From assembly GCA_944392225.1 (NCBI GenBank), contig CALXWB010000011.1:1-42050 (forward strand): 42,050 nt of DNA. Reading direction: 5' to 3'. Below the pieces are notes generated by a model, which saw only the letters and a program-made list of their open reading frames with translations, did no database searches and had not been told where the DNA came from. Positions 17,520 through 34,811 of this stretch are shown piece after piece. Within the stretch, counting starts at the first letter, position 1. Every line of letters begins with the position of its first letter. The translations under genes and the position numbers were made by a program. This stretch comes from an uncultured Alphaproteobacteria bacterium (lineage in GTDB: Bacteria; Pseudomonadota; Alphaproteobacteria; RF32; CAG-239).

Positions 17520-17556
17520 TTTTTTCTTCTTTCATTCAAGTTCAAAAACTTCTTTG

Positions 17557-17585
17557 AAGATAGACCAGATTCGCTTTTTCATCAA
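17557..17585 (-). promoter_or_regulatory. Candidate promoter of rph-rdgB-addB-addA-trxA
   Basis: On the minus strand TTGATG (17580-17585) and TATCTT (17557-17562) are 17 bases apart, about 40 bases upstream of the rph start codon. Confidence 0.4.
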
Positions 17586-17661
17586 GCACAAAAGACATTT
17601 AAAACAGCAAAATCTGGATTAGATTCTCGGACGAAACAAAAAAAATTTGGAGACGGCCGCA

Positions 17662-17690
17662 AAAGAAAGCACCTTAAATGTGCTTTCTTT
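17662..17690. repeat. Perfect inverted repeat inside repeat copy 1
   Basis: AAAGAAAGCAC (17662-17672) pairs with GTGCTTTCTTT (17680-17690) around a 7-nt loop. It resembles a terminator stem, but the T runs on either side are short (on the minus strand TTTCTTTTG). It could end leftward transcription coming from glgA before rph, or be part of the repeat. Confidence 0.6.
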
Positions 17691-17701
17691 AAGGAGACGC
17701 A

Positions 17702-17974
17702 ATGAGACTTGGCTTTGACAGAATGCGACAGCTTTCACAGCAAAGCCTTAGTCGGAATTGGAGAAATAGAGTAGTTTTAGGAGCGAGAAAAATCCTAATG
17801 TACAAAGAGGTACATGGATTTTTCGAGACGACGCTAAACTGCTCTAGTTCTCCATTATACAAATTTTTTATAAAATTGTATTATACGAGGAAGATAATAA
17901 GATTTAAGGAAAATTGCGAGGGAATGTACAAAGAAGTACATGACCGAACAATTTATCCGCAAAATCTGTATTAG
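17702..17974 (+). CDS. Doubtful 90-residue ORF within the dispersed repeat
   Basis: An ATG with AAGGAG six bases upstream opens a 90-codon frame that runs through the repeat and stops at TAG. The product is basic, starts MRLGFDRMRQLSQQSLSR, and carries MYKEVH twice, because each hairpin translates to that sequence. The second repeat copy keeps the same frame without indels from GARKILMYK to the same TAG, but an in-frame TGA lies just upstream there, and many differences between copies change amino acids. I do not recognise the sequence. It may be a real repeat-encoded peptide or an accidental open frame in a structured repeat; the second seems more likely. Confidence 0.25.
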   Translation: MRLGFDRMRQLSQQSLSRNWRNRVVLGARKILMYKEVHGFFETTLNCSSSPLYKFFIKLYYTRKIIRFKENCEGMYKEVHDRTIYPQNLY

Positions 17975-17993
17975 ATTCCCGTAGAATACGATT

Positions 17994-20033
17994 TTACAGT
18001 TGACCGGTTTTAAGCAAGTTAAAGTACTTGTAGACGGAGCCGCCTTCGATATCCCAGCTAAAATCTTTACGCATGGCGGCAGCTTGCATACGTTTGATTT
18101 TTTCTGGTTTGGCAAAAAAGGTATTGATGGCATGGTTTAGGGTTTCGGTGTAGGCATTTTTGTTATTTTTCAGACGGCGCGCCGTGATGTTGTTGCCATA
18201 AACATGTTGTTTTTGCGCAAAAAAGACTTCGGTTCTGAAACCATCTACGTCGTCTTCAATAGTATCGACAAGGCCGCCGGTTGAAGTGGCAACAGGAAGT
18301 GCACCTTTGGCCATGGCTTCCATTTGGGTCAAGCCGCAAGGCTCAAAGCGCGAAGGCATCATATAAAAATCGGCCGCAAGCTGAATGGCATAAGCAAACT
18401 CATCTTTATAACCGCGGAAAACAAAAATGCGTTTGGCGGCAATCGGGTTAATTTCTGCCACATCATCTTTTAGTTTTGCAAGATTTTGTGTAAAATATTC
18501 TTTATCTCCGGCGCCACCCAAAACAAAGATGGGATATTCGCGATATGTATGATTTTCTAAAACATTCAAAATGGCTTTAGCGGCAATATCATATCCTTTT
18601 TGTTCCACCAAACGGCTGGTCATGCAAAACAGCGGTGTTTTTGCCACATCTTCAACCGATTTTTCAATATCGTTAAATTTATAAATATCAATCAAAGGAA
18701 TAACTTGGTCTTTATAAGCTTTATCTTTGGCAATTTTAGAGATAAGTTTGATAAATTCTACCTTGTTATGAAGTTTGACATCTAAGTTATTTTCATCAAA
18801 AAACTTAAAATCGGTTGTTTTGAAATAAGCATTAATGGATTCGATTTTATTTTTAAGCGGTGCAATCAGCTTTTTATCATAGCCGTTGACAATGCCATAA
18901 AAATTGCGGTGATCTTTTCTGATTTTCAAAACATCTCTAAAGTCGAGCCCGAGGCTGAGTTCTTTAGAGACTTCTTCCATATAGTTTTTGGAAACGGTCA
19001 CAACTCTGTCTGCCAAGAAAACATTACAAGCCGCTTGGTTATAACAATCAGAAATCACCAAACTGTTGATGGCTCTGGGGTTGCTGTTTTTAACGGTTTT
19101 AGCATTTTTGAAAACAACCGTTGCCAAATCTTCATACAAAGAGTTGAGGATTTTTGAGGTATTATCATAATCCCAACCTTGGTAGCCCAAATGGTGAGCA
19201 ATATGCACAATCGGAATGGATTTAAGCTGGCGTGCAACTTTTTCATCCATTCTGCCGGCATCAACCTGTGCAAGGGTAAAATACTTGGTCAGGCCGGAAA
19301 GAGCACCGCTGTGCCAATCATTGGCGAGCAAAACATTAGGCAGCTCAATCTCGCGGCAATTTTTGCATACAATAGCTTCAAGCAGCTCATAAACAGCCTT
19401 GGAGAAGAAAGCAAAACGCTCCACTTCGTTAACATTAAACTCATTTAAGACATAGCACCCGTCTTGGGCTGAAACATTTTTCGGGCTGGGATTAATGGAA
19501 AAGAAACGATCGCTGGACAAGAAAATATAATTGGTATTTTCATATTTTGCCAAATAAACATCAACGGCAAAACGGTTGAGCACGGCACGATTGCCAAAGA
19601 AAGGCACATGAATGGTCTTAATTTTTTTGACCTTAACGCTTTTGCCCTCTGCTCCGAGGTAGACATCGCCGTTGAGCTCGGCTTTTTTCTTGCCGGTGTT
19701 TCCGAGATACATCGGGGTAACAATGGTAAAAACATGGCCGTCATGACCAAAGGTATTGTTAAAAGCCTCGGGCAACTCGGAAGCCACCATGCCCAAACCG
19801 CCCCATTTCATAAAAGTTCCGGTTTCGGCCGAGACCATCCAAGCATTAAGCTTTTCAATATCGGGCCAAGAAAAACGCCCCAAGCATTGGCTGCGGGAAA
19901 CATTCTGAATCTCTTTGATTCGAGGATTGTTGGTAACAGAATAGTTAATTGAAAACTTTCTTTTTTTGTTAAAATCTTTATCCAAAAACTTATACTGCGC
20001 ATCAAAACCCGAGATGGCAAGATTTTTATTCAT
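17994..20033 (-). CDS. glgA: Glycogen/starch synthase (GT5 family), extended form
   Basis: GT5 synthases add glucose from ADP- or UDP-glucose to alpha-1,4-glucan. The 679-residue product has the N-terminal nucleotide-binding motif KWGGLGMVASELPEAF with K76, LANDWHSGAL, the MTSRLVEQKGYDI segment opening the second Rossmann domain, and SRFEPCGLTQMEAMAKGALPVATSTGGLVDT with E564. Bacterial GlgA is usually about 480 residues with KxGGL near residue 15. Here about 60 extra residues precede it and there are insertions between the domains (for example 385-460). No glgB, glgC or glgP is in the window, so substrate and pathway cannot be fixed. It is transcribed alone, divergently from grpE. Its stop codon touches repeat copy 1. 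Confidence 0.88.
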   Translation of the reverse strand: MNKNLAISGFDAQYKFLDKDFNKKRKFSINYSVTNNPRIKEIQNVSRSQCLGRFSWPDIEKLNAWMVSAETGTFMKWGGLGMVASELPEAFNNTFGHDGHVFTIVTPMYLGNTGKKKAELNGDVYLGAEGKSVKVKKIKTIHVPFFGNRAVLNRFAVDVYLAKYENTNYIFLSSDRFFSINPSPKNVSAQDGCYVLNEFNVNEVERFAFFSKAVYELLEAIVCKNCREIELPNVLLANDWHSGALSGLTKYFTLAQVDAGRMDEKVARQLKSIPIVHIAHHLGYQGWDYDNTSKILNSLYEDLATVVFKNAKTVKNSNPRAINSLVISDCYNQAACNVFLADRVVTVSKNYMEEVSKELSLGLDFRDVLKIRKDHRNFYGIVNGYDKKLIAPLKNKIESINAYFKTTDFKFFDENNLDVKLHNKVEFIKLISKIAKDKAYKDQVIPLIDIYKFNDIEKSVEDVAKTPLFCMTSRLVEQKGYDIAAKAILNVLENHTYREYPIFVLGGAGDKEYFTQNLAKLKDDVAEINPIAAKRIFVFRGYKDEFAYAIQLAADFYMMPSRFEPCGLTQMEAMAKGALPVATSTGGLVDTIEDDVDGFRTEVFFAQKQHVYGNNITARRLKNNKNAYTETLNHAINTFFAKPEKIKRMQAAAMRKDFSWDIEGGSVYKYFNLLKTGQL

Positions 20034-20102
20034 AACCCAACCTTTCTATATATTTTTTTTAATAATTAATTCCCGACAAACCGATAATTTGATTTTACAC
20101 TA

Positions 20103-20131
20103 TTGACTTGTGTAACAATTATCACTAGATA
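20103..20131 (+). promoter_or_regulatory. Candidate promoter of grpE
   Basis: TTGACT (20103-20108) and TAGATA (20126-20131) are 17 bases apart, about 45 bases before the start codon. No CIRCE element (the HrcA operator) is visible, and no clear sigma-32 consensus. Confidence 0.5.
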
Positions 20132-20175
20132 TTTTATATATAAATTCACAAAGATTATTTGTAAAGAGGAAACGC

Positions 20176-20796
20176 ATGAGCAAGGATAAAAATAACGAGA
20201 AAAAATCGGCAGAAAACAAAGAAAAAGACACAACATTTGATGTCAGCCAACATTCTGCCGAAAACAAGACAGATTTGGACGAAGAAGAGCTGGCTGCGGC
20301 AAATGCCGAAGCCGGAGATTATTCACAAATCGAAAAAGACAATATTGAGAGCCTGCGCCTGGAAAATGCACACCTCAAAGATGAATATTTACGCGCTTTG
20401 GCAGAGAGTGAAAACACCAAAAAACGTTGCGCGCAAGAGATTGAAAAAAACAACAAATATGCCATTTCATCTTTTGCCAAAAATTTGCTGACCGTGGCCG
20501 ACAATCTGCATCGCGCCATTGAAGCCGCCGCACAAAATACCGAAAGCTGCAAAGATCTGCTCAAAGGTGTTGAGATGACCGAAGCTGAGCTGATGAAAGT
20601 GTTTAACAAGCACGGCATCACCAAAATGGAAGTTATCGGCAAACATTTTGATCCCAATTTTCACCAAGTGATTCAAGAAGTTGAAGACAAAGAAAAGCCA
20701 AACGGCACCGTCATTGCCGAACTGCAAACCGGCTATATGATTAATGACCGCATCTTACGTGAAGCCATGGTTGTGGTTTCCAAAGGTGGGGAATAA
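20176..20796 (+). CDS. grpE: Nucleotide exchange factor GrpE
   Basis: GrpE releases ADP from DnaK in the Hsp70 cycle. The 206-residue product has an acidic disordered N-terminus (1-55), a long coiled coil (about 55-120, including SLRLENAHLKDEYLRALAESENTKKR), and the C-terminal beta domain with HFDPNFHQVIQEVED and the signature GYMINDRILREAMVVVSKGG. The start has a good AGAGGAAAC ribosome site. dnaK and dnaJ are not adjacent. It stands alone, ending at a strong terminator shared with ftsK. Confidence 0.96.
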   Translation: MSKDKNNEKKSAENKEKDTTFDVSQHSAENKTDLDEEELAAANAEAGDYSQIEKDNIESLRLENAHLKDEYLRALAESENTKKRCAQEIEKNNKYAISSFAKNLLTVADNLHRAIEAAAQNTESCKDLLKGVEMTEAELMKVFNKHGITKMEVIGKHFDPNFHQVIQEVEDKEKPNGTVIAELQTGYMINDRILREAMVVVSKGGE

Positions 20797-20817
20797 ATAC
20801 ATAAAATATACATACCC

Positions 20818-20849
20818 AAACCGCTGATTTTTTTATCAATCAGCGGTTT
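20818..20849. terminator. Bidirectional terminator between grpE and ftsK
   Basis: A 12-bp perfect stem (AAACCGCTGATT / AATCAGCGGTTT) with an 8-nt loop is followed by eight T on the plus strand and by an AT-rich tail on the minus strand. It serves converging grpE and ftsK. Confidence 0.9.
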
Positions 20850-20878
20850 TTTTTGTTGATAATTTGGTAGGTATTTTT

Positions 20879-23158
20879 CTACAAGACCTCGCGACGCCCC
20901 ACATGGTCAGCTGCCGAAATCACACCTTCTTCTTCCATACGTTCAATCAAAGATGCCGCGCGGTTGTAGCCGATACGCAATTTGCGTTGAACGTAAGAGG
21001 TTGAGGCTTTTTTATCATTGCGCACAATCTCCACGGCTTGAGCATACAAGTCTTCATCACTGCCGTCACCGCCCATTGAGGTTTTATCAAACACGGCAGA
21101 AGAAGATGAACTTTTTTCGTTAAGCTCTCCTTCGGTCACACCTTGCACATATTCCGGCTCTTTTTGCGATTTCAAAAATTCAACCACTTTTTCCACTTCG
21201 CTGTCTTTAACAAAACTACCATGCACACGCAAAGGTCTTTGTCCGGCCGGCATATAAAGCATATCGCCCATACCGAGGAGCTGCTCGGCACCCTGCTCTC
21301 CCAAAATGGTGCGGCTATCAATTTTTGAGGTAACCTGGAAGCTGATACGGGTTGGGAAGTTGGCCTTAATCGTGCCGGTGATAACATCCACGGACGGACG
21401 TTGGGTAGACATAATGAGGTGCAATCCGGCGGCACGTGCCATTTGCGCCAAACGCTGAATGGCAGCTTCCACCTCTTTACCGGCCACAAGCATCAAATCG
21501 GCCATTTCATCCACCACAATCACAATATAAGGCAGCGGGGTTAAATCCAAGTCTTGTTCTTCATAAATCGGTTGGCCGGTTTCTTTGTCAAAACCTGTTT
21601 GCACGGTGCGGGTCACTTTTTCGCCGCTGGCACGCAACTCTTGCAATTTTTGGTTATAGCCTACAATGTTGCGCACATTGAGCTTAGCCATGGCCCGATA
21701 ACGGTCTTCCATCTCGCGCACCGCCCATTTCAAACCGATAACCGCCTTGGCCGGGTCGGTAATCACCGGCGTGAGCAAATGCGGAATTCCGTTATACATG
21801 GAGAACTCAAGCATTTTCGGGTCAATCAAAATAAATTTGCACTCATCGGGACGCATTCTGTAAAGGAGCGACAAAATCATTGAGTTCACACCGACCGATT
21901 TACCGGAACCTGTTGTTCCGGCAACCAACAAGTGCGGCATTTTAGACAAGTCGGCATAAACATTGCGACCACCGATATCTTTACCCAACACCACATTGAG
22001 AATATTTTTGGATTCTTGAAACTCTTTATCTTCCAAAAGCTCTCTGAGCCATACGGTTTCGCGTTTGGCATTCGGCATCTCAATACCGATGGTGTTTGAC
22101 CCCGGCACCACGGCAATACGCACGGAAACAACAGACATAGAGCGGGCAATATCATCGGCCAAACCGATAACACGGGCGGTTTTTGTGCCGGGAGCCGGCT
22201 CTAACTCATACAAAGTGACCACCGGACCGGGCCGAACTTTGACGATTTTGCCGTTAACGCCAAATTCTTGCAATACGTTCTCCAAATCACGTGCAATGGA
22301 TTCAAGCTCTTTTTCATTAACCTGTCCGGCATTTTTGTCTTTAACCATGGAGAGCAAATTAACACTTGGTTTCTGATAACCGTCATCTGTTGTTTTGCTT
22401 TTGGCGGCCGACATTTTGGCAGCCATTTTTTCTTCAGCGGCAGAAGCTTCGGAAACTTTTGGTTCTTTTCTTTCTTTGCTTTTCTTAGATTTGACCACGC
22501 GTTGTTCAGCATTATCTCTTTTGAAATGATGTCCGAAATTAAATATGGCGCGGCAACAACCCCAAAGCAAAATGCCGAATTTTTTAACCGCCTGCCCAAA
22601 AGCAACAATCCAATTCAGCCAGTTTTTATAAGTAATACCAACGGCAAAATCAAAAGCCAAAATGCTCAAAAGCAACAAGAGCAAAGCAAAAATGAGCGTG
22701 CCATAAGCATAAACATAAATAGAATTAAAAATGGTCAACAAATAGCGAGAAAAAAACTTACCGACATTTCCGCCGATTTCACCCAAACCCCAAGTTTGCG
22801 GCACCAGGCTCAAAACCGTGGCAAAGCATACACTGCCGAAAAAGAAAGCAAAAACCCGGCTATATGGATTAATCACTTCGCGCAGACGCAAGAGATGATA
22901 TCCCCAGACCAACGGTGCAATCAAAAACAGCGGCAAAGCAAAGCCAAACCAAGACAAGCAAAAATCGGCACAAATTGCGCCAAAGCTACCTAAATAATTG
23001 CTGATTTCGCCGGAAGCCGTGTTAAAAGAAGAGTCTTGCGGATTAAAAAAGAAAACGCTGGCCAGCATAAAAGCAGAGAGCAAAAGCATAGCCAGGCCGA
23101 AAATTCTGATTCCCAATTTTGCGGCAAAATTTTTTTCTTTTTTCTTTTTTTTAGCCAT
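20879..23158 (-). CDS. ftsK: DNA translocase FtsK
   Basis: FtsK sits at the septum and pumps DNA so that dimeric chromosomes can be resolved by XerCD at dif. The 759-residue product has an N-terminal basic stretch, four predicted membrane segments in residues 20-185, a short charged linker (about 215-275), the RecA-like motor with Walker A GTTGSGKS (414-421) and IVIVVDEMADLMLVAGKEVE, and a C-terminal winged-helix gamma domain (DEDLYAQAVEIVRND to the end) that reads KOPS sites. The linker is short, as in other alphaproteobacteria. The start at 23158 is used; a GTG twelve bases upstream is an alternative. XerD is encoded 8 kb away. Confidence 0.96.
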   Translation of the reverse strand: MAKKKKKEKNFAAKLGIRIFGLAMLLLSAFMLASVFFFNPQDSSFNTASGEISNYLGSFGAICADFCLSWFGFALPLFLIAPLVWGYHLLRLREVINPYSRVFAFFFGSVCFATVLSLVPQTWGLGEIGGNVGKFFSRYLLTIFNSIYVYAYGTLIFALLLLLLSILAFDFAVGITYKNWLNWIVAFGQAVKKFGILLWGCCRAIFNFGHHFKRDNAEQRVVKSKKSKERKEPKVSEASAAEEKMAAKMSAAKSKTTDDGYQKPSVNLLSMVKDKNAGQVNEKELESIARDLENVLQEFGVNGKIVKVRPGPVVTLYELEPAPGTKTARVIGLADDIARSMSVVSVRIAVVPGSNTIGIEMPNAKRETVWLRELLEDKEFQESKNILNVVLGKDIGGRNVYADLSKMPHLLVAGTTGSGKSVGVNSMILSLLYRMRPDECKFILIDPKMLEFSMYNGIPHLLTPVITDPAKAVIGLKWAVREMEDRYRAMAKLNVRNIVGYNQKLQELRASGEKVTRTVQTGFDKETGQPIYEEQDLDLTPLPYIVIVVDEMADLMLVAGKEVEAAIQRLAQMARAAGLHLIMSTQRPSVDVITGTIKANFPTRISFQVTSKIDSRTILGEQGAEQLLGMGDMLYMPAGQRPLRVHGSFVKDSEVEKVVEFLKSQKEPEYVQGVTEGELNEKSSSSSAVFDKTSMGGDGSDEDLYAQAVEIVRNDKKASTSYVQRKLRIGYNRAASLIERMEEEGVISAADHVGRREVL

Positions 23159-23221
23159 AAGCAATATCACCCATAATTAAAAACTTTATAGGAACTATAA
23201 TACCAAATTCTCAAAATATTA

Positions 23222-23683
23222 TTAATATTCTAAAGAGCTATAATCAGGATTATGAGGCGCCTGCAAATATTTTGGGTCCGTCATTTTAATCATGATGACT
23301 CGTTTGATTTTGGCAATACGTGCTTTTTTATCCTCGGCCTTATAGGGTTCGGAATGATTATTCCAAACGGTTGTCGGCCAATCAGGATCACCTTTTTTGC
23401 GGCAAACAATATGCACATGGAGCTGCGGACACAAATTGCCGATAGCCGCAACATTGGTCTGATCATGCGGAAAGTTTTCAGCCATCACCTCTTCACAAAG
23501 GTCAATTTCGCGCATGAGCTGCAATCTGTCTTCCATACAAAGCCCGAGCATATTTTTGACATTATTGATTTTTGGCACCAAGATAATCCATGGATAAAAA
23601 GCATTATCTTCAAACAAAACTTTGCATAGTTTCAAGTCCATAACATAGTCTTTTTTGGCCAAAGCCGGAACAAGTTCAAACAT
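23222..23683 (-). CDS. HIT family protein (QxHxH variant)
   Basis: HIT proteins are nucleotide hydrolases or transferases acting on dinucleoside polyphosphates and AMP conjugates. The 153-residue product has a beta-rich N-terminal half (FYPWIILVPKINNV) and the motif PQLHVHIVCR, where the usual first His of HxHxH is Q87 while H89 and H91 remain. This Q form is common in the bacterial subfamily with the QLHVH sequence, so activity is still likely. The start at 23683 has a GAGGT site just upstream; an ATG five codons earlier lacks one. The extended C-terminus (YLQAPHNPDYSSLEY) is not part of the HIT core. It is probably a single-gene unit. Confidence 0.85.
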   Translation of the reverse strand: MFELVPALAKKDYVMDLKLCKVLFEDNAFYPWIILVPKINNVKNMLGLCMEDRLQLMREIDLCEEVMAENFPHDQTNVAAIGNLCPQLHVHIVCRKKGDPDWPTTVWNNHSEPYKAEDKKARIAKIKRVIMIKMTDPKYLQAPHNPDYSSLEY

Positions 23684-23799
23684 TTTAACCTCGCACATTC
23701 AACTTGTTTTTGTTATTAATATTAAGTGTTATAACGCCAATTAATTAATATGTAATTAACAGCCGGCGCCGATTCAAGTTTATAAAAGGCTTTAAAAGC

Positions 23800-23827
23800 T
23801 TGACTTTTTTCTTGTATCAGATAAAGC
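23800..23827 (+). promoter_or_regulatory. Possible promoter of fabD-fabG
   Basis: TTGACT at 23800-23805 is a good -35 box. The best -10 candidate at 16-base spacing, TAAAGC (23822-23827), is weak, so this is tentative. Confidence 0.3.
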
Positions 23828-23861
23828 TTTTTATTGATGTTAATAATAAGGAAGACAATGA

Positions 23862-24812
23862 ATGACTAGAGCTTTCGTGTTCCCCGGACAAGGATCTCAA
23901 TTTGTCGGTATGGGGAAAGAACTGGCTGAGAACTTTAAGTCAGCCAAAGAAGTTTTCGAAGAAGTCAATGAAGCCTTAAATCAAGACTTATTCAAAATAA
24001 TGATAGAAGGTCCGGAAGCGGATTTAACCATGACAGCCAATGCTCAACCGGCATTAATGGCTCATTCCATGGCCATTGTTCGTGTTCTGGAAAAAGATTT
24101 CGGTATCAGCCTCAAAGACAAGGCCGCTTTTGTTGCCGGACATTCTTTGGGCGAATATTCTGCCGCCTGCGCTGCCGGTGTTTTCTCTTTAACAGACACG
24201 GCAAAACTGTTGCGCACCCGTGGTGATGCCATGCAAAAAGCCGTTCCACTCGGTGTTGGCGGTATGGCTGCCGTCATCGGTTTGAGTGCAGAAAAAGTCC
24301 ACGAATTGGCTAAAGCTTGTGCCGATGAGAACAATGTTTGTGTTTGCGCCAATGACAACTCGGATGGGCAAATTGTCATCTCCGGGCATATGGGAGCCAT
24401 TGACAAAGCGGTTGAAATTGCCGGCCCTGAGTTTGGCGCCAAACGTTGCTTAAAACTTCCCGTCAGTGCCCCGTTCCACAGCCCGTTGATGAAACCGGCT
24501 GCCGAGGTTATGGCCAAGGCCTTGCATGAAGTCAACGCACATGATGCCGAAATTCCGCTGATTGCCAATGTTTTGGCTACAGCCATCAGCAAAAAAGAAG
24601 AAATCATTCAGCACTTGATAGAACAAGTCACCGGCTCGGTTCGCTGGAGAGAGAGTGTTGGTTATATGAAAGCAAAAGGCGTAACCGATGTTGTTGAACT
24701 CGGTGCCGGAAAAGTTTTGTCAGGTCTGGTAAGAAGATGCGACAAAGAAATCAATGCAATTTCGGTTGGTTCAGCTGCCGAAATTGAAGAATTGGCTAAA
24801 AGTTTAATTTAA
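23862..24812 (+). CDS. fabD: Malonyl-CoA:ACP transacylase
   Basis: FabD loads malonyl groups from CoA onto acyl carrier protein for fatty acid synthesis. The 316-residue product has FPGQGSQFVGMG at the start, the nucleophile motif GHSLGE with S95, RGDAMQKAVPLGVGGMAAV, and APFHSPLM with the catalytic His near 205. The ATG at 23862 follows AAGGAAG by eight bases. A second ATG at 23858 is in another frame and reads only three codons before TAG. It is followed 15 bases later by fabG. acpP and fabF, often next, are not here. Confidence 0.96.
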   Translation: MTRAFVFPGQGSQFVGMGKELAENFKSAKEVFEEVNEALNQDLFKIMIEGPEADLTMTANAQPALMAHSMAIVRVLEKDFGISLKDKAAFVAGHSLGEYSAACAAGVFSLTDTAKLLRTRGDAMQKAVPLGVGGMAAVIGLSAEKVHELAKACADENNVCVCANDNSDGQIVISGHMGAIDKAVEIAGPEFGAKRCLKLPVSAPFHSPLMKPAAEVMAKALHEVNAHDAEIPLIANVLATAISKKEEIIQHLIEQVTGSVRWRESVGYMKAKGVTDVVELGAGKVLSGLVRRCDKEINAISVGSAAEIEELAKSLI

Positions 24813-24827
24813 TTAAGGAAAATAAAC

Positions 24828-25565
24828 ATGTTTGAATTACACGATAAAGTAGCTTTGATCACGGGTGCTGCCGGTGGTTTAGGCGACAAAATTGCCCGCA
24901 CATTGCACAAACAAGGAGCCACTTTGGCCTTGACTGATATGCGTGAAGAACCCATGCTCAAACTCAAAGCAGAATTGGGCGACCGCGTAGAAGTTTTCAC
25001 AGCCAACCTGACCAATGCCGAAGATGTTAAAAACTTGGTTTCCAATGTTGAAGCCAAATTGGGCCGCATTGATATTTTGGTCAACAACGCCGGTTTGACC
25101 AGAGATAATTTGTTTATCCGCATGAGTGATGAAGATTGGCAATTGGTTTTGGATGTTAACCTTTCTGCCGGTTTCAAATTGGCAAAAGCTGCTGTTCGCG
25201 GCATGATGAAGCGCCGTTTCGGCCGCATCATCGGTATTGCCTCTGTTGTCGGTGTCACAGGCAACGCCGGCCAAGCCAACTATTCTGCTTCCAAAGCCGG
25301 TATGATTGCCATGAACAAATGCTTGGCACAAGAAGTCGGTTCACGCGGCATCACCGTCAACTCCATTGCTCCTGGTTTCATCCGCACCCCGATGACAGAT
25401 GTTTTGCCGGATGATGTTAAAGCCGCTTTGCTCGCCAAAATTCCTGAAGCAAAACTCGGAGAAGCACAAGACATTGCCAATGTTGTTGCTTTCTTGGCAT
25501 CTGATGAAGCACAATACATCACAGGTCAAACTATCAACATCAATGGTGGTATGGCCATGATTTAA
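24828..25565 (+). CDS. fabG: 3-oxoacyl-ACP reductase
   Basis: FabG reduces 3-oxoacyl-ACP with NADPH in each round of fatty acid elongation. The 245-residue short-chain dehydrogenase has the cofactor motif TGAAGGLG (12-19), NNAG at 86-89, the catalytic S139, Y152 and K156 (YSASK), PGFIRTPMTD and the ITGQTININGGMAM end. The neighbour fabD and the sequence identify it as FabG and not a specialised dehydrogenase. It ends at the terminator at 25591-25620. Confidence 0.95.
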   Translation: MFELHDKVALITGAAGGLGDKIARTLHKQGATLALTDMREEPMLKLKAELGDRVEVFTANLTNAEDVKNLVSNVEAKLGRIDILVNNAGLTRDNLFIRMSDEDWQLVLDVNLSAGFKLAKAAVRGMMKRRFGRIIGIASVVGVTGNAGQANYSASKAGMIAMNKCLAQEVGSRGITVNSIAPGFIRTPMTDVLPDDVKAALLAKIPEAKLGEAQDIANVVAFLASDEAQYITGQTININGGMAMI

Positions 25566-25590
25566 GGTTTTCAAGCCTTATACAACAAAA

Positions 25591-25620
25591 AAGCACTTGC
25601 TCATAAAAGAACAAGTGCTT
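25591..25620. terminator. Bidirectional terminator between fabG and the GNAT gene
   Basis: A 9-bp stem AAGCACTTG/CAAGTGCTT has a 12-nt loop, an A run before it and seven T after it. A smaller hairpin, TAAGG/CCTTA, lies just upstream (25564-25581). Confidence 0.85.
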
Positions 25621-25623
25621 TTT

Positions 25624-26124: not shown

Positions 26125-26222
26125 TCTTGATTCCTCAAAAAAAGATTGATTCATTTATAAATAAAGGTATGTTACTAAACATAAAAACATAAAATGGTAT
26201 AAAAAACATAAATATCGGCGGC

Positions 26223-27356
26223 ATGAAAAAACTAAACCGTTACATAATCAAGCAGATATTGGTGGGCTTTTTATTGGTTACTTTTTCTTTAATGTCCATC
26301 ATCTGGTTGACCCAATCTTTGCGCTTTGTTGATTTGATAACCAACAATGGTATCCCCGTGAGCATATTTGCCGAGCTCACATCCTTATTAATGCCCCGAA
26401 TTTTCACCATTTTATCGCCGATTGCCGTTTTTGCCGCCATTTTGTTTGTATATAACCGCATGTTATCAGACCGCGAACTGGTTGTGATGAAATCTGCCGG
26501 CATCAGCCCGATGCAATGTGCCGTTCCGGCCATCATTTTCGGTTTGTTGCTGTCATTTTTCAACATTTTTGTATACAACCAAGGGATTCCCTGGTCAGAA
26601 AGAAAATTCAGCGAGCTGCAGTGGAAAGTCAAAAACGATGTTTCGCACCTCATGCTGAGAGAAGGAGAGTTTACCACCTTACAAAACGGCTTGACCGTGT
26701 TCATAACCACCCATGAGAAAGACGGCTCAGTCACGGGGATTATGGTCAATGATGAAAGAAACCCCGAGAGCAAAGTCACCATCTCGGCTGAAAAAGGCCG
26801 TGTGGTTTATACCAAAAAAGGACCAAAAATCATCATGGTCAACGGAGCCAGACAAGAAATAAACAATAAAAGCGGACAATTCACCTCTGTTTCTTTTGCG
26901 CGTTATTCGGTTGACTTTGGCTTAAAAGAAAGCTCTCGCCGCAAAGAAGCCGGTGTCAGAGAAAAAAGCTTAAAAGAACTGTTAACGGCAGGAGATAACC
27001 CAAATTTGGAAGAAAAAGAAGCCAATCGCTATATTGTGGAAGGCAACCGCCGTTTGCTTAACCCATTTTTCAATTTGTTGTTTGCACTTATGGGCTGTGT
27101 AGGCTTACTGTGCGGCAACTTCAACCGCCGCGGCCAAACCAAAATCATATCCTTATCGGTCACGGCCATGATTGTCATTTTGGCTTTGGATTTATCTTTA
27201 ACCAACATTGCCGTCAATAATTTAGCTTTATTATCTTTGATTTATGCCAATTTGTTATTACCGCTCGGAATATGTTTTTATATTTTACTGTTTTATAATC
27301 CGGCAGCTTTTCATCACAAAAAGAAAATATCGGACGAGGTTTTGAATCATGGATAG
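26223..27356 (+). CDS. lptF: LPS export ABC transporter permease LptF
   Basis: LptF and LptG form the transmembrane part of LptB2FG, which pulls LPS from the inner membrane onto the Lpt bridge. The 377-residue YjgP/YjgQ family protein has the usual layout: three N-terminal membrane helices (about 12-35, 52-75, 98-118), a periplasmic beta-jellyroll region (about 120-265) and three C-terminal helices (from RRLLNPFFNLLFAL). The segment YNRMLSDRELVVMKSAGISP is the LptB coupling helix. Its TAG stop overlaps the lptD start by 8 bases. lptG usually follows directly; here it is at 39096-40205. Confidence 0.93.
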   Translation: MKKLNRYIIKQILVGFLLVTFSLMSIIWLTQSLRFVDLITNNGIPVSIFAELTSLLMPRIFTILSPIAVFAAILFVYNRMLSDRELVVMKSAGISPMQCAVPAIIFGLLLSFFNIFVYNQGIPWSERKFSELQWKVKNDVSHLMLREGEFTTLQNGLTVFITTHEKDGSVTGIMVNDERNPESKVTISAEKGRVVYTKKGPKIIMVNGARQEINNKSGQFTSVSFARYSVDFGLKESSRRKEAGVREKSLKELLTAGDNPNLEEKEANRYIVEGNRRLLNPFFNLLFALMGCVGLLCGNFNRRGQTKIISLSVTAMIVILALDLSLTNIAVNNLALLSLIYANLLLPLGICFYILLFYNPAAFHHKKKISDEVLNHG

Positions 27357-29619
27357 GAACCTCTGTCTTAAGATATTGCTTTCTTTTGCACTGCTGCCAA
27401 ACATTGCCCCTGCAGCAGAAGTTGTTTACAACACCACCGATGCCGGTGTGGTTTTATCCAAAAGCGACATGGACACGCTGCCAACAGGCTATGTCGAGCC
27501 GCTGAATTTGACAGATGCCGCCAACGTCATTCCGGCAGAAGAAGAGACAGAAGAAAACCCGGAAATATATTTCAGTGCCGATGAAATGCAAAATGACCAA
27601 CAGCTCGGCACCATCACGGCCATTGGCAATGTGGATATCATCAGAGACAATGTTGCGGTTAAAGCCGACAAAATTATCTATAACCAAAAAGAAGATATCA
27701 TCACCGCGGTGGGCAATGTGGTTATATTAAATGAAGATGGCACGGTTGCTTTTTCAGATTATGTTGTTTTGTCAGACAAAATGAAAAAAGGAGAGATGGA
27801 CAATATCAAAGTCATCATGAAAGACAAGAGTCAAATTGCCGCCAACAAGGTTAGAAAATTTGAAAATGATGACAAAGAGATGGAAAACGCTGTGTATTCT
27901 CCTTGCAACATATGCACCGGGCAAGATCCATTGTGGCAGCTCAAAGCAAAGAAAATCACCCATGATGCCAAAAGCAAGAATATGTATTATCAAGATGCCT
28001 TTTTGGAAGTCAAAGGTGTTCCTGTATTTTACACGCCGTTTTTTGCTCATCCGGATCCAACGGTCAAACGCCGCTCCGGCTTTTTGATTCCGAACATTGC
28101 CAGCAGCTCATATTTAGGTGCCGCCATTCAACCCAAATATTTCTGGAGCATTTCAGACAACGAAGACCTATTTTTAGATCCCATATTTTCAACCGATAAA
28201 GGCCTGATTTTAAGCGGCAAATATAACAAATATGTTTATCGCGGAGAGTTGAGTGCCGAAGGCACCTTTATGAATGACGATGACAGAGATGAAACCAGAG
28301 GCAACATTTTTGCCACAGGTCGTTATGAAGTGAACGATTATTGGGTTGCCGACATGGACATCAACTATGCCTCTGATAGAAACTACCTCAAAGACATGAA
28401 TCTTGAAAAGCAAGACGATGCCTGGCTCACCTCCAGTTTGAAGATGCAAGGCTTTGACAACCGCAATTATGCCGCCATTGAGAGCTATTATTATCAGCTT
28501 TTAAGTTATGATATGAAAGAATATGATGAGCCGGTTGTTCTGCCGTTGATGGACTATGAAAATATCAGCGATGTTGGACCCTATGGAGCATATACCAAAA
28601 CCAATTTGAACTTTGCTTCCATTTATCGTGAAGAAGAAACCAACACCCAGCGTTTTTCAATGATAAATTCATGGGTTTTGCCATACACCAGTCCCTATGG
28701 GGAAAAATATCGTATGGTAGCATCGGTCAAATCAGATTTATATTATGTTGACAATTATCTCAACCCGGCAGGAGAAGAATTCACCGGCGGCGTGGCGCGC
28801 ATTTTCCCACAATTAGGTTTGGAGTGGAAATTGCCGTTCATCAGAGCCACGGAAGATTCGAGACAAATTTTGGAACCGACGATTGTTGCCGTTGCCGCCC
28901 CGAATGACAGTAATATGACGGACAAAATCCCCAATGAAGACAGCCAAGATTTTGAGCTGGACGATTCTAATGTTTTGGATATTGACCGCTATGCCGGATA
29001 TGATCGCAATGATACCGGCAGCCGCATCAGCTATGGTGTAAACTGGAGCTCCTATGGTGAAGATTTTGGCCGCACATCGGCCTTTTTGGCACAAAGCTAC
29101 TATTTTGATAAAAATGAATCCATAAACAACACCTCTTCATATGACCTGAGTGAAAAAGAAAGCCACTTAAGTGATTATGTCGGCCGCATTTATGCCAGCC
29201 CGAGTGAATATTTTGACTTAAACTATCGTTTCCGTTTAGATAAAGACAGTTTGGACTTAACATACAGCGAACTTGCAACCACGGTTGGTCCACAAATCTT
29301 GAACGCCTACATTTCATACATATATTTACAAGACAACAAATCTTCATCTTTGATTGAAGACAGCGAAAGAAAAGAGCTTTATACGGCATTGAGAAGCAAA
29401 ATAACCAAAGATTGGAGCATCAGTGTTTATAACCGCCAAGATTTAACACATGACGGCGGCTCTTTGGAATATGGCGGCGATTTAATCTATGAAGATGAAT
29501 GTTCAATGTTGATTTTATATATGAGAAAAGACAACTCGAGCGACCCTGAATATGAAGGAGACTTTGAATTTGGCGCCAACTTCTTGTTAAAAACTCTGGG
29601 TGGCACCGGCAAAAAATAA
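27349..29619 (+). CDS. lptD: LPS-assembly outer-membrane protein LptD
   Basis: LptD forms, with LptE, the beta-barrel that inserts LPS into the outer leaflet. The 756-residue product has a signal peptide (LLSFALLPNIAPA, cleavage near 25), an OstA/LptA-like N-terminal domain (about 60-180; FSADEMQNDQQLGTITAIGN), the alphaproteobacterial cysteine segment SPCNICTG with C186 and C189, VPVFYTPFFAHPDPTVKRRSGFL and a long barrel domain to the end. C718 sits in the barrel and is the likely disulfide partner of C186 or C189, though E. coli has a two-Cys pair there. SurA, encoded next, is the chaperone that helps LptD fold. LptE is not in the window. Confidence 0.94.
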   Translation: MDRNLCLKILLSFALLPNIAPAAEVVYNTTDAGVVLSKSDMDTLPTGYVEPLNLTDAANVIPAEEETEENPEIYFSADEMQNDQQLGTITAIGNVDIIRDNVAVKADKIIYNQKEDIITAVGNVVILNEDGTVAFSDYVVLSDKMKKGEMDNIKVIMKDKSQIAANKVRKFENDDKEMENAVYSPCNICTGQDPLWQLKAKKITHDAKSKNMYYQDAFLEVKGVPVFYTPFFAHPDPTVKRRSGFLIPNIASSSYLGAAIQPKYFWSISDNEDLFLDPIFSTDKGLILSGKYNKYVYRGELSAEGTFMNDDDRDETRGNIFATGRYEVNDYWVADMDINYASDRNYLKDMNLEKQDDAWLTSSLKMQGFDNRNYAAIESYYYQLLSYDMKEYDEPVVLPLMDYENISDVGPYGAYTKTNLNFASIYREEETNTQRFSMINSWVLPYTSPYGEKYRMVASVKSDLYYVDNYLNPAGEEFTGGVARIFPQLGLEWKLPFIRATEDSRQILEPTIVAVAAPNDSNMTDKIPNEDSQDFELDDSNVLDIDRYAGYDRNDTGSRISYGVNWSSYGEDFGRTSAFLAQSYYFDKNESINNTSSYDLSEKESHLSDYVGRIYASPSEYFDLNYRFRLDKDSLDLTYSELATTVGPQILNAYISYIYLQDNKSSSLIEDSERKELYTALRSKITKDWSISVYNRQDLTHDGGSLEYGGDLIYEDECSMLILYMRKDNSSDPEYEGDFEFGANFLLKTLGGTGKK

Positions 29620-29631
29620 AAGGAGAAAACA

Positions 29632-30558
29632 ATGAAAAAAAGTTTTTATATTTTTGTTTTGAGTTTATGTTGCATTGCCGCAAACAGTTGGGCACAGAAC
29701 CAAAATTCTTACAAAATAGCAGCTTTGGTCAACGGAGAAATTATCTCCAACCAAGATATTCAAAACCGCATCAACTCCTTTTTAATGACCTCGCAAATCC
29801 CCTTAAATGAGCAAACCAAAGCCATGATCATGCAAAGAGTTTTGCATGCCGCCGTTGATGAAAAAATCAAACTGCAAGCTGCAGAAAAAAACAACATTGA
29901 CGTCAGTGAAAAAGATATTGATGCCGCCATTGCCAATTTTGAAAAAAACAACAAAATCAGCAAAGGAGAATTGAAAAATATATTAAAAGAAGCCAAAGTC
30001 AGTGAAAAAAGCTTTAGGGAGCAAATGAAAGCCGATTTGGCATGGATTCGCTTGCTGCGCAACAAGCTGCGTATGGAAGGCAACATCACGCAAAAAGAAA
30101 TTGAAACAGCCTTGGCAGACGCCAAAAAAGATTTGAACACGCCAAAATATCAAATTTCAGAAATTTTTGTAAAGAAAGCCAAAGCCAAAGATATTCAAGA
30201 CTTGGTGGACAATTTGAGAAAAGACCCGCGTTTTGAGCTGTATGCCATGCGTTTTTCAGATAGTCCGAGCGCAGCCAAAGGCGGAAACTTAGGCTGGGTC
30301 AACCAAGGCAAATTGCCGGAAAAATTGGAAGAAGTTGTCTTAAGTTTAAAACCCGGAGAAATCAGCGATCCCGTTTTGCTAAACGATGGTTATTATATCA
30401 TCCGTTTAAATCAAACTTTCAACCCCAAAAAGGACAAACCGCAAATTCCTGATGAAGCAGAAATCAAGAACTATCTGACCAACCAAAAGATGGAAACTTT
30501 GGCACAAAAATATCTGCAAGATTTGAGACAACAAGCGGTTGTGGAAATCAGAAACTGA
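29632..30558 (+). CDS. surA: Periplasmic peptidyl-prolyl isomerase/chaperone SurA-like
   Basis: SurA escorts outer-membrane barrel proteins, LptD in particular, across the periplasm. The 308-residue product has a signal peptide (cleaved near SWA-Q), a SurA N-terminal domain (KIAALVNGEIISNQDIQNRI and the following helices) and one parvulin domain at about 172-258 (PKYQISEIFVK to DGYYIIRLNQ). E. coli SurA has two parvulin domains and 428 residues; one-domain forms occur in alphaproteobacteria. It begins 12 bases after lptD and its TGA is one base before the rsmA ATG. Confidence 0.9.
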   Translation: MKKSFYIFVLSLCCIAANSWAQNQNSYKIAALVNGEIISNQDIQNRINSFLMTSQIPLNEQTKAMIMQRVLHAAVDEKIKLQAAEKNNIDVSEKDIDAAIANFEKNNKISKGELKNILKEAKVSEKSFREQMKADLAWIRLLRNKLRMEGNITQKEIETALADAKKDLNTPKYQISEIFVKKAKAKDIQDLVDNLRKDPRFELYAMRFSDSPSAAKGGNLGWVNQGKLPEKLEEVVLSLKPGEISDPVLLNDGYYIIRLNQTFNPKKDKPQIPDEAEIKNYLTNQKMETLAQKYLQDLRQQAVVEIRN

Positions 30559-30559
30559 G

Positions 30560-31414
30560 ATGACGGATTTAAGCTCAAAAATAAATGAACTCCCCAGCTT
30601 GAGAGAAACCGTGGAAGCACATGGCCTCATGGCAAAAAAAGCCTTGGGTCAAAACTTTTTGCTGGATAGAAACATCACGGACAAAATCATCAATACGTCG
30701 CTGATGAAGCAAAACAAAACAGATTTCAGCGGCGAATATGTTTTTGAGGTTGGCCCCGGCCCGGGAGGCTTAACGCGTTCGGTTTTAAGCCGCAACCCAA
30801 AAAAACTCACCGTTGTTGAGATGGATGAACGCTGCATAGAGATTATGCAAGAGATAAGAGAAAAAGTCGGTAAAGATAAGCTGGAAATTATTGAAGGCGA
30901 TGCCTTAAAACAAGACTTTTCCAAGTTTAAAGGCAAGCCAAAGAATATTGTCAGCAATCTGCCTTATAATATTTCCGTGCCTTTATTGGTTGGCTGGTTA
31001 AAACAAATTGAAAATTTTGACAGCTTAACCCTGATGTTTCAAAAGGAAGTTGCAGATAGGATTTGCGCCCCGACAAAATGCAAAGACTATGGCCGAATTT
31101 CAATCCTTTCACAGCTATTATGCAAGATTGAGCGTCTGTTTGATATCAATCCTAATTGTTTTGTCCCGGCGCCAAAAATTTGGTCTACGGTAGTTTTGTT
31201 CCGCCCCAAACACGCAAATATAGATAACAAACTTTTGGAAAAGGTGGAAAAGCTAACCACGCAAGCTTTCAGCCAGCGCCGTAAGATGATTCGCCAAAGT
31301 TTGAAATCTGTCCAAGGGCTGGAAGAAAAATGCTTGGCAATTGGGTTAAATTTAACCATGCGAGCAGAAGAAATCACCCCTGAGCAATATCTGGAGCTGG
31401 CCAAGCTACTTTAA
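30560..31414 (+). CDS. rsmA: 16S rRNA dimethyladenosine transferase RsmA (KsgA)
   Basis: It dimethylates two adjacent adenosines near the 3' end of 16S rRNA (A1518 and A1519 in E. coli numbering), a late check of 30S assembly. The 284-residue product has KKALGQNFLLDRNITDKI, the SAM-binding EVGPGPGGLT (G65-G70), VVEMDERC and the catalytic NLPYN (133-137), plus the C-terminal QRRKMIRQSLK helix. The start at 30560 is set by the surA stop. pdxA, which often lies between surA and rsmA in other Proteobacteria, is absent. Its last 9 bases overlap the end of xerD on the opposite strand. Confidence 0.96.
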   Translation: MTDLSSKINELPSLRETVEAHGLMAKKALGQNFLLDRNITDKIINTSLMKQNKTDFSGEYVFEVGPGPGGLTRSVLSRNPKKLTVVEMDERCIEIMQEIREKVGKDKLEIIEGDALKQDFSKFKGKPKNIVSNLPYNISVPLLVGWLKQIENFDSLTLMFQKEVADRICAPTKCKDYGRISILSQLLCKIERLFDINPNCFVPAPKIWSTVVLFRPKHANIDNKLLEKVEKLTTQAFSQRRKMIRQSLKSVQGLEEKCLAIGLNLTMRAEEITPEQYLELAKLL

Positions 31415-32311
31415 GCGACTGAGCGGATGCAAGCGTTTAACCGTCTCAATCAATTTTTCTGATGTAATATGGGTATAAATCTCGGTGGTGGAAATATCCT
31501 CGTGTCCGAGCATTTTTTGCACGCTACGCAAATCGGCATTATGGTTGAGGAGGCGCGTAGCAAAAGTGTGACGCAAAACGTGCGGAGAAACTTTTTTGGG
31601 ATCAAGGCCTGCTTCAACAGCCAAATCTTTGAGTGCGGCAAAAAAAGCCTCTCGGGTCACATGCCCGGAAGAAGAATTGAGCGAAGGAAAAAGCCAAATA
31701 GATTTTCTGCCGCCGCGAATAAAATTATCACGAATGAGCGTATAATCCAAAACCGCCTCAATCGCCTCATCAGAAATGGGAATAAGCCGCTCTTTGCTCC
31801 CTTTTCCGCGCACAAGAATTTCTTTTTTATCAAAATTGATGCAATTTTCAGGTAGTCCGACCAGTTCGGAAACACGCAAGCCGCAAGCCGACATCAAAAT
31901 CAGCATCACGGCCAAACGCCGCCCGGAGAGTCCTTCTTTTTTCAAAGCCGCACCGGTAAGACGCTTAAGCTCAGCCTCGGTCAAAAATTTAGGCAATGGT
32001 TTTTCTTGTTTGGGCGCCATAAGATAAGCCGTTGGGTTTTCTTTGATTTCTTTTTCGGAAAACAAAAATTTGAAAAACTCTTTCAGAGCCGAAATTTTAC
32101 GAGCAATGCTTTTAGGCGCATAATTCATTCGGCTGAGCTTTTGCACAAACTGGTAAATATCTTCATCGGTGATATCTGCCATATTGTTTTTAGGCACAAA
32201 GGTCAAAAACTGTTCTAAATCGCGTTGATAATTTTCAATCGTATTTTGAGCGGCACCGCGTTCGGCCACCATCATAGATAAAAAACTTTCAAGCAGATTC
32301 CCGGCAGACAT
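31406..32311 (-). CDS. xerD: Site-specific tyrosine recombinase XerD
   Basis: XerD, with XerC, resolves chromosome dimers at dif. The 301-residue product has the SAM-like core-binding domain (1-100) and the catalytic domain with R146, K170, H244, R247, H270 and the nucleophile Y279. These residues keep the spacing of E. coli XerD, which supports XerD over XerC. It overlaps rsmA tail to tail by 9 bases with no room for a terminator. The 47-residue membrane protein gene ends 3 bases before its start. Confidence 0.92.
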   Translation of the reverse strand: MSAGNLLESFLSMMVAERGAAQNTIENYQRDLEQFLTFVPKNNMADITDEDIYQFVQKLSRMNYAPKSIARKISALKEFFKFLFSEKEIKENPTAYLMAPKQEKPLPKFLTEAELKRLTGAALKKEGLSGRRLAVMLILMSACGLRVSELVGLPENCINFDKKEILVRGKGSKERLIPISDEAIEAVLDYTLIRDNFIRGGRKSIWLFPSLNSSSGHVTREAFFAALKDLAVEAGLDPKKVSPHVLRHTFATRLLNHNADLRSVQKMLGHEDISTTEIYTHITSEKLIETVKRLHPLSRLK

Positions 32312-32314
32312 GTT

Positions 32315-32458
32315 TTATTTATTTAAGAACGTGTTTTCCAAAGGTTGTTCGACATGTTCCACCTTAACGGGAATTTCGGTAGAAATAACAAAAAGAACAG
32401 CCAAAACAACAATTAATCCCAAAATATAAAAGATAGCCTTTGATTTTTTCTGACGCAT
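32315..32458 (-). CDS. Small single-pass membrane protein, 47 residues
   Basis: An ATG opens a 47-codon frame ending in TAA, 3 bases before the xerD start. The product is basic at the N-terminus (MRQKKSKA), has one strong hydrophobic helix of about 20 residues (IFYILGLIVVLAVLFVI) and a 20-residue polar tail (STEIPVKVEHVEQ and on). This is a classic small inner-membrane protein, probably N-in. A weak AAGG lies 10 bases upstream. It is short, but codon use and topology support a real gene. The family is not recognised. Co-transcription with xerD is likely. Confidence 0.7.
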   Translation of the reverse strand: MRQKKSKAIFYILGLIVVLAVLFVISTEIPVKVEHVEQPLENTFLNK

Positions 32459-32543
32459 GATATATAAAACCTTATAAAATTAAAAACTGTTTATACAACA
32501 GTTAGCACAAAATCTATGAAAGAAAAATGAAAAAAAGCAAAAA

Positions 32544-33089
32544 ATGATAAAAAAAATAGATAAAATAATATTGCTTGTCGGGTTAATGGGCAGCGGCAAA
32601 ACCAGTGTAGGGAAAAGGCTAGCCAAAAAGTTAAATTTGCCGTTTATAGATGGCGATTGCGAGGTTGAAAAAGCGGCAGGCTTGTCTTTGATGGACTTGC
32701 TCAAATGCTATGGAGAAGAAGAGTTTAGAGCCGGAGAAATGCGCGTAATGAAGCGTTTGCTGCAAGGCTCGCCATGCGTTTTGGCCTCTGGCGGTGGTTC
32801 CTTTGTGGCAGAGCAAACCAGAGCTTTGGCCAAGGAACATGCTTTAACCATTTGGCTCAAAGCAGACATAGATGTTTTATATCATCGCACCACGGGACGC
32901 AAACGCCGTCCGTTTTTGATTGGTGATGACAACCAGTTAAAGAGCAAACTGGAAAAATATATCAACGAAGAATATCCCTATTATTCCGAAGCCAATATTG
33001 TGGTTGAAACCAAAGACGAGCAAGTAGACATTACCGTCAACCGCGTCATTGCCGCCATCAATCAATATCTGGAAGAAGACAAGGAATAA
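32544..33089 (+). CDS. aroK: Shikimate kinase
   Basis: It phosphorylates shikimate in the aromatic amino acid pathway. The 181-residue product has Walker A GLMGSGKT (13-20), the shikimate-binding DGD (36-38), LASGGGSF and the lid region with RKRRPFL. aroB, usually next to it, is not in the window. Its start lies 85 bases from the divergent small membrane gene. It ends 12 bases before repeat copy 2. Confidence 0.94.
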   Translation: MIKKIDKIILLVGLMGSGKTSVGKRLAKKLNLPFIDGDCEVEKAAGLSLMDLLKCYGEEEFRAGEMRVMKRLLQGSPCVLASGGGSFVAEQTRALAKEHALTIWLKADIDVLYHRTTGRKRRPFLIGDDNQLKSKLEKYINEEYPYYSEANIVVETKDEQVDITVNRVIAAINQYLEEDKE

Positions 33090-33101
33090 ACGGATATTTG
33101 C

Positions 33102-33396
33102 CGCTGAATTGCTCTAGTTCCCCGTTATACGGATTTTTGCAAAAAAATTCGGAGAACGTGGAAAATAGAGTGATTTGAGGAGCGAGAAAAATCCTAATGT
33201 ACAAAAGGGTACATGAATTTTTCGAGACGACGCTAAATTGCTCTAGTTTCCCGTTATACGGATTTTTTAGAAAAGTTTGGAGAACGAGGAATATAATAAG
33301 AAACCAGAAAAAATTTGAGGGAGTGTACAAAGAGGTACATGACCGAAAATTTTATTCGCAGTTTCTGTATTAGATTCCCGTTATACGAACTTTTCC
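33102..33396 (+). repeat. Dispersed repeat, copy 2 (between aroK and the ADP-dependent kinase)
   Basis: The stretch is built of two tandem diverged units plus the start of a third. CCCGTTATACG begins at 33121, 33250 and 33377, 129 and 127 bases apart. The ATGTAC-N6-GTACAT hairpins lie at 33197-33214 and 33323-33340, 126 bases apart. TGCTCTAGTTYCCCGTTATAC occurs at 33110 and 33239. From about 33160 to the end it matches copy 1 at 17.77-17.99 kb. It ends at the stop codon of the kinase gene. CCGTTATACGG is itself nearly palindromic. No transposase or terminal duplication is visible. Confidence 0.9.
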
Positions 33397-34797: not shown

Positions 34798-34811
34798 ATC
34801 ATCAATCTCCA

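Follow-up and report, generated by a model that had tools for sequence, protein, structure and literature searches.

Stop-codon-anchored hairpin repeats in an alphaproteobacterial family: a probable group of ERIC-like miniature mobile elements

The window analyzed here is a stretch of 42,050 nucleotides from contig C11 (CALXWB010000011.1) of the genome G000 of an uncultured alphaproteobacterium, an assembly of 1.46 Mb in 78 contigs. Two stretches of this window, 17600-17993 and 33102-33396, harbor members of a repeat family which is real, large and mobile-looking. The members are quite probably mobile elements of the ERIC/MITE type (MITE, miniature inverted-repeat transposable element), small and non-coding, that would be mobilized in trans and located at the TA of stop codons. 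The kind itself is ordinary; the anchoring at stop codons and a hairpin tip common to several phyla are unusual.

Direct reading confirmed that both stretches are gene-free and that each contains two hairpins about 126 bases apart, with tips at 17798, 17924, 33197, and 33323, as described in an initial annotation of this DNA. The core given there, ATGTAC-N6-GTACAT, was found at three tips, and the tip at 33323 starts with GTGTAC instead. The motif CCCGTTATACG occurs at 33121, 33250, and 33377, as had been stated, and nowhere else on the plus strand of the window. The hairpins are real and longer than had been claimed: each whole unit of about 127 bases forms one imperfect hairpin, and both stretches are tandem arrays of such units with the tip RYGTAC-N5-7-GTACRTGA. 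Folding as compared to dinucleotide shuffles yielded z-values of -6.0 to -8.7 for the four units and of -7.2 and -12.9 for the whole stretches. A copy typically comprises about 127 bases with the ends TA-AAAA... and ...TTTT-TA; the stem sequence is free to vary, and the geometry, the GA/GA internal loops and the tip are kept. A tandem-repeat scan reported no array at either stretch because the units differ too much, and a simple tandem repeat was rejected. A known RNA family was rejected as well: no Rfam family reached its gathering score in the window, and nine other loci gave three weak matches below the gathering score, none of which was judged relevant.

The family is dispersed. A BLAST search with the first stretch returned 17 places in G000 at E ≤ 1.9e-9, including the query itself and two places matching only the portion with an insert described below as cassette C. 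A covariance model, R1, was built from 36 elements of the window's bacterial family and gave 23 matches in G000 at E ≤ 5.2e-6, of which 12 had been used to build it, plus six weaker matches. With 23 model matches and 17 BLAST places in one genome, the observation is not due to chance. R1 matches were present in 31 of 33 family genomes and in 16 of 16 genera, at 1 to 74 per positive genome; these counts are lower bounds, at most 110 candidates having been scored per genome. Within the class, 33 of 385 genomes gave a match at E ≤ 0.01 with nine candidates scored per genome, and 29 of these lie outside the window's family.

The stems covary. A MAFFT alignment of the 36 elements with an RNAalifold structure of 27 pairs showed 94.7% of 969 cells paired, as compared to 71.0% in shuffles. 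Two-sided changes were found at 20 pairs, a number reached by 32 of 500 shuffles; two-sided cells amounted to 261 as compared to 80.8 in shuffles, and the covariation score was 0.687 versus 0.238 for shuffled and at most 0.149 for slid alignments. Four of the six tip pairs are invariant, and the tip-closing pair is mostly G-U on the best-folding strand (30/36). A genome-wide copy search and a covariation test had been proposed initially, and the possibility of only two copies without covariation was clearly excluded. Stem segments exchange blockwise, with the outer segment of one type combined in both arms with the inner segment of another (L044:1631-1749, L045:544-662, and L072:1478-1596; L059, L065, L069 and elements at edges were excluded from this comparison). 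Arrays contain up to six units, spaced 120-131 bases apart at 40 of 49 junctions. Six consecutive units with a spacing of 120-126 bases and junctions without TA were observed at L477 (G013:C17:27143-31261); this array is probably a local tandem duplication.

Insertion at TA became apparent at the 3' end of glgA, a glycogen synthase-like gene (17994-20033, minus strand) with a TAA stop codon at 17994-17996 (minus strand). A type-B unit of G000 (17871-17996, plus strand; tip 17924-17941) is located at the TA of this stop codon, and no unit is present there in the related genome G004. The empty site in G004 reads CATTATACAAATTTTTTACAGTTGACC (CAAATTTTTTACAG), and the filled site in G000 reads CAAATTTTTTA-[TAAAATTG..type B..CGATTT]-TACAG; the complete unit lies between CAAATTTTTTA and TACAGTTGACC with TA on both sides. 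The TA of the stop codon is thus the target duplication. The initial annotation had noted no target-site duplication; it exists and is visible only by comparison with relatives. The TA duplication and TA termini known from ERIC were found at this one site. Furthermore, C-terminal length and stop were equal with and without the element both for glgA and for the gene at site 2, the 3' end of the sugar kinase-like gene next to the second stretch; insertion thus took place at the stop without shortening the gene.

The elements are anchored at stop codons in a fixed orientation. Gene context was determined by simple open reading frame (ORF) calls for the window and for 80 stretches around matches in its relatives, nearly all from the best-scoring list. 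Scoring gave 149 matches, of which four were dropped (two truncated by the end of a contig, two being echoes on the opposite strand), and the remaining 145 formed 92 arrays; arrays without a gene on the respective side were left out (3 of 92 for the 3' side, 8 of 92 for the 5' side). On the 3' side, the neighboring gene faces the array with its stop in 82 of 89 cases, and on the 5' side in 34 of 84. Counting overlaps, a stop lies within 15 bases on the 3' side of 71 of 89 arrays, as compared to 1 of 84 on the 5' side (Fisher 4e-30). The gene at the 3' end is antisense to the better-folding strand of the element, and none of the 92 arrays lies inside an ORF. The stops of the 72 arrays within 25 bases are TAA (57), TAG (14), and TGA (1), whereas 190 other genes of the same stretches end with TAA (121), TAG (40), and TGA (29; p 0.0008). 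In 11 of these 72 arrays, the reading frame enters the model match by 10-21 bases and the stop lies inside the match. Gene-proximal units score better: the unit nearest to the gene outscored the most distal one in 24 of the 32 arrays that have at least two close units (p 0.007). This pattern is expected where new units are added beside the stop, the model score being only a proxy for unit age.

Stop-codon anchoring in a fixed orientation also fits a host-encoded 3'-end structure, either a terminator or an mRNA stabilizer, which would be selected at gene ends and copied by recombination. Occupancy points in the same direction, since some element is present at the glgA 3' end in seven of nine genomes compared and at site 2 in five of ten (among the latter, the hairpin of G003 is divergent but similar in its tip); moreover, G005 and G002, which lack an element at site 2, show by eye apparent ordinary terminator hairpins. 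We nevertheless regard this explanation as unlikely, because the number of matches ranges from 0 to 74 among the 33 family genomes, the gain at glgA is clean and TA-flanked, distal units are truncated, and the strand that folds better runs antisense to the gene next to it. A terminator scan of 17400-18100 detected no site, and a scan of 32950-33550 detected a single weak site that lies outside the units, both results being near shuffle level; ordinary intrinsic terminators inside the units were therefore rejected.

In the ERIC/MITE reading, the ends and/or the folded tip would most likely be recognized by a transposase supplied in trans. Insertion would occur at TA dinucleotides, above all at the TA of TAA and TAG stop codons, and nearly always with the 3' end of the element at the stop of the gene and antisense to it. 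Repeated insertion at one stop codon together with local duplication may give rise to tandem arrays, the gene-distal members of which would decay. Located as hairpins in 3' untranslated regions, the elements may additionally trim host transcripts, as reported for ERIC in Yersinia.

The two strands differ in folding: with RNA parameters, the strand that has the GA/GA loops and the G-U pairs outperformed its complement in 122 of 140 units, and with DNA parameters that disallow G-T pairing it did so in 138 of 140. In 50 of 84 arrays, it is the start of the 5' neighbor that points toward the array. As the better-folding strand is often not the transcribed one, a role at the DNA level would be favored. 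These data also bear on an RNA-copied element similar to a short interspersed nuclear element (SINE), whose cDNA would be joined to nicked DNA at gene ends and which would thereby acquire precise 3' and truncated 5' ends. The precise 3' end at the stop, the 5'-truncated distal remnants and the predominance of G-U as tip-closing pair on the best-folding strand agree with such a mechanism. It appears very unlikely, however, as the resolved insertion shows a TA duplication and two intact ends, the truncated units on the distal side of the window arrays are explained by decay, and the well-folding strand is often one that is not normally transcribed.

The window's family agrees with ERIC in its length, its one hairpin per copy, the TA duplication, and the GA/GA flanks of the tip, and it is therefore read as ERIC-like. 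ERIC, also designated IRU, and RU-1 of enterobacteria (MITEEc1, MITEYpe1, MITEPlu5) comprise about 123-127 bases in a single long hairpin and have TA at their ends and a TA duplication (PMC2229807, PMC6267812). PMC2229807 describes ERIC as 127 bp with TA termini and target duplication, and its transposase-driven movement as without experimental support so far. PMC2267715 draws ERIC as one long stem-loop, and PMC6267812 counts 552 complete copies of the ERIC-related MITEPlu5 and reports similar ends in IS630-type elements. Escherichia coli ERIC copies read CCCCAG-GA-GCTTAC-ATAA-GTAAGT-GA-CTGGGG and thus share the six-pair tip and its GA/GA flanks, except that one pair has changed from G-C to T-A; this change also occurs within the window's family, at G000:C9:3256-3374. 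At both distinct E. coli loci fetched (ybhI and cusC), the 3' end of ERIC meets an antisense stop. ERIC copies at stop codons of Yersinia reportedly also have one orientation.

Differences to ERIC are equally evident. The stems are unrelated and only the tip agrees by inspection; the host family of the window's elements is alphaproteobacterial and not enterobacterial or vibrio, and their arrays reach six units. Photorhabdus has IS630 elements with ends similar to those of ERIC (PMC6267812), whereas no IS630-type domain was detected in the 30 genomes of the window's family that were searched. We therefore read the family as new and ERIC-like (MITE-type), and not as ERIC itself. The initial statement that it is not a known family holds at the level of sequence but not in kind. 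The papers listed by a text search of the literature for the tip letters look coincidental by title and start of abstract, which is no proof of absence from print.

The tip alone was searched in named genomes with the pattern GGAGCGTAC-N4-7-GTACGTGAG. It occurs in at least 118 stretches, 80 of which were listed; among the matches listed are Mesorhizobium, Agrobacterium, Ochrobactrum, Rickettsia, Klebsiella, Enterobacter, Rouxiella, Listeria, Paenibacillus, Nitrospirae, Clostridia, Bacteroidales, Myxococcales and others. In 77 of 84 matches the tip is enclosed by 20 pairs or more, as compared to 331 of 1680 flank-shuffled controls, five edge elements being skipped; the seven matches with fewer pairs are L263, L292, L298, L302, L312, and two copies in L323. 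In Firmicutes, hairpins of 28-34 enclosing pairs carry the tip in Listeria (L286, L297, L315), Paenibacillus (L282, L295), and Bacillus (L246); no long hairpin surrounds the tip in L302 and L312 of Paenibacillus. Viral contigs gave 105 stretches, with at least 20 enclosing pairs in 80 of 107 matches. The wider tip hairpins follow the same antisense-stop rule, although more weakly: by crude ORF and hairpin-edge calls, the 3' end is located -30 to 25 bases from an antisense stop in 31 of 69 cases, and the 5' end is that close to a stop in 10 of 66 (p 0.00018); four of 79 hairpins with longer flanks lie inside ORFs. In Rouxiella aceris (L323:4511-5111), five head-to-tail tips are exactly 122 bases apart, and two of them fold poorly alone.

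A second model, R2, comprised 32 of 41 diverse tip elements (alignment A2) and was built without enterobacteria and without elements likely to belong to the window's family; L249, L254, L255, L263, L302, and several others were left out. R2 matched six of nine loci of the class at E ≤ 3.7e-9 and Rouxiella at 2e-11 to 8e-11; in the other enterobacterial loci its matches, at 2e-8 to 2e-7, covered part of the model.

The tip hairpins suggest a superfamily spanning several phyla, in which ERIC and the rickettsial palindromic elements (RPE), treated as separate families in PMC10969869, may be united. RPE resemble the window's family in being palindromic, about 105-150 bases long and flanked by TA at some ends (PMC2229807 and PMC10969869). 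In Rickettsia tamurae, R1 matched a hairpin carrying this tip (L313:3500-3611) at E 2.2e-5 among loci preselected by the tip; the hairpin lies within a frame of 1245 codons that stays open across it and is, by our reading, probably DnaE-like. RPE insert in frame into protein genes, whereas arrays of the window's family were found inside ORFs in 0 of 92 cases. A divergent hairpin with the shared tip was observed in G000 (C23:9165-9281, L094) inside an ORF of 679 codons; this intragenic position resembles the habit of RPE. Palindromic repeats of rhizobia (Mesorhizobium, Agrobacterium, Ochrobactrum) share tip, similar length, and long hairpin with the window's family but have GC-rich stems; they may correspond to the repeats named RIME or Bru-RS.

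Tentatively, and with somewhat more doubt than confidence, we consider ERIC, RPE, rhizobial palindromes, and the window's family as one ancient multi-phylum superfamily of mobile hairpins with a common tip structure, one-orientation insertion at stop-codon TA, and a shared enzyme. The recognition structure might then be GA-[RYKTAC-N4-7-GTAMRT]-GA at the apex of an imperfect hairpin of about 120 bases. Stems across the proposed superfamily are too divergent to align, and literature searches found no statement of a cross-phylum link in the texts inspected. The movement of ERIC-type elements has been an open question since their discovery in 1990-91. A resolvable gain, fixed orientation, a stop-codon target, and a cross-phylum tip render it testable what reads the tip and why stop codons are used, and the data suggest that enterobacterial, rickettsial, and rhizobial repeats, which were described apart, may be one system.

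A number of results weigh against ERIC-like mobile elements with such a wide kinship. A single clean pair of filled and empty sites was found, at glgA; the additional type-A unit of G000 at site 2 has no intact TA at its left end, and a loose pattern locates TA at 30 of the 49 unit junctions, not at all of them. The arrays used for gene context were picked from the best-scoring matches, with simple ORF calls, and two family genomes, G017 and G029, gave no R1 match. Neither R1 nor R2 reported the E. coli ERIC loci L363-L365 at E ≤ 1, for which reason the family is called ERIC-like and not ERIC. R1 matches outside the class come from loci preselected by the tip. R2 found neither L061 nor the units of the window; within the bacterial family it matched L063 at 0.0025 and L094 at 0.84, and within the class it matched only the tip of L105 (0.0073) and gave no match at L104 and L110. 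In four of five enterobacterial loci R2 matches were partial, three of them extending little beyond the tip. Finally, the search for a transposase, limited to PF01797 (Y1_Tnp, RAYT-type) and PF13358 (DDE_3, IS630-type), yielded no PF01797 match in 20 of 30 family genomes, G000 among them, and no PF13358 match in any of the 30. An IS630-type transposase resident in the searched family genomes was thus rejected, and the mobilizing enzyme would lie outside these two models.

The distribution of PF01797 also bears on REPIN-type elements moved by RAYT, a Y1 transposase. Imperfect palindromes in many intergenic copies and PF01797 matches in 10 of 30 family genomes are compatible with such elements; yet G024, G010, G012, and G003 lack PF01797 despite 74, 63, 54, and 46 element matches, respectively, the units exceed REPs (20-40 bp, PMC3733652) several-fold in length, and the one resolved insertion duplicates TA. 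We consider REPIN-type elements highly improbable. Of the initial proposal of a REP/MITE-like element, the MITE half was thus supported by many copies, the TA duplication at one site, and inverted ends, and the REP/RAYT half was contradicted by the absence of the Y1 domain from 20 of 30 family genomes.

The units of the window are of two types, with the tip set within GAGAAAAATCCTAATGTAC...GTACATGAATTTTTCGAG in type A and within GGGAGTGTAC...GTACATGACC in type B; all are located on the plus strand. The first stretch starts with a decayed remnant of a type-B 3' arm (17607-17629), recognized by reading and without model score (GCAAAATCTGGATTAGATTCTCG, compare CGCAAAATCTGTATTAGATTCCCG at 17958-17981). 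A type-A unit (17642-17870; tip 17798-17815; model match 17747-17864) follows, its 5' arm split by cassette C, and then the type-B unit at glgA. The second stretch consists of a 5'-truncated type-A remnant with the 3' arm only (33102-33138), similar to remnants in G004, G006, and G001, a type-A unit (33139-33267; tip 33197-33214; model match 33144-33263), and a type-B unit (33268-33396; tip 33323-33340; model match 33272-33390). By direct reading, this array abuts the TAG stop codon (33397-33399, minus strand) of the sugar kinase-like gene (33397-34812, minus strand).

Cassette C (17654-17760, plus strand, CGGCCGC...AGTCGGAATTG) is a separate structured insert of about 107 bases with approximate borders. 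It consists of a terminator-like hairpin and a GCAATGAGACT...AGTCGGAATTG hairpin, and it is found inside other hairpin units as well (L002, L007, L044, L045, L367-L370, L394). A related GCAATGAGACT...AGTCGGAATTG hairpin lies beside another terminator-like hairpin at L030 (G000:C28), for which a tRNA or tmRNA origin was rejected. The cassette sits in the 5' arm of hairpin units in one orientation, mostly after GGAG(A) or GAGGG, and replaces a few bases or most of this arm. Shorter hairpins with a similar tip and different stems were observed at the right end of contig C7 of G000 (52538-52765) and at the left end of C12; one and the same element seems to terminate both contigs, so that these repeats are probably where the assembly breaks.

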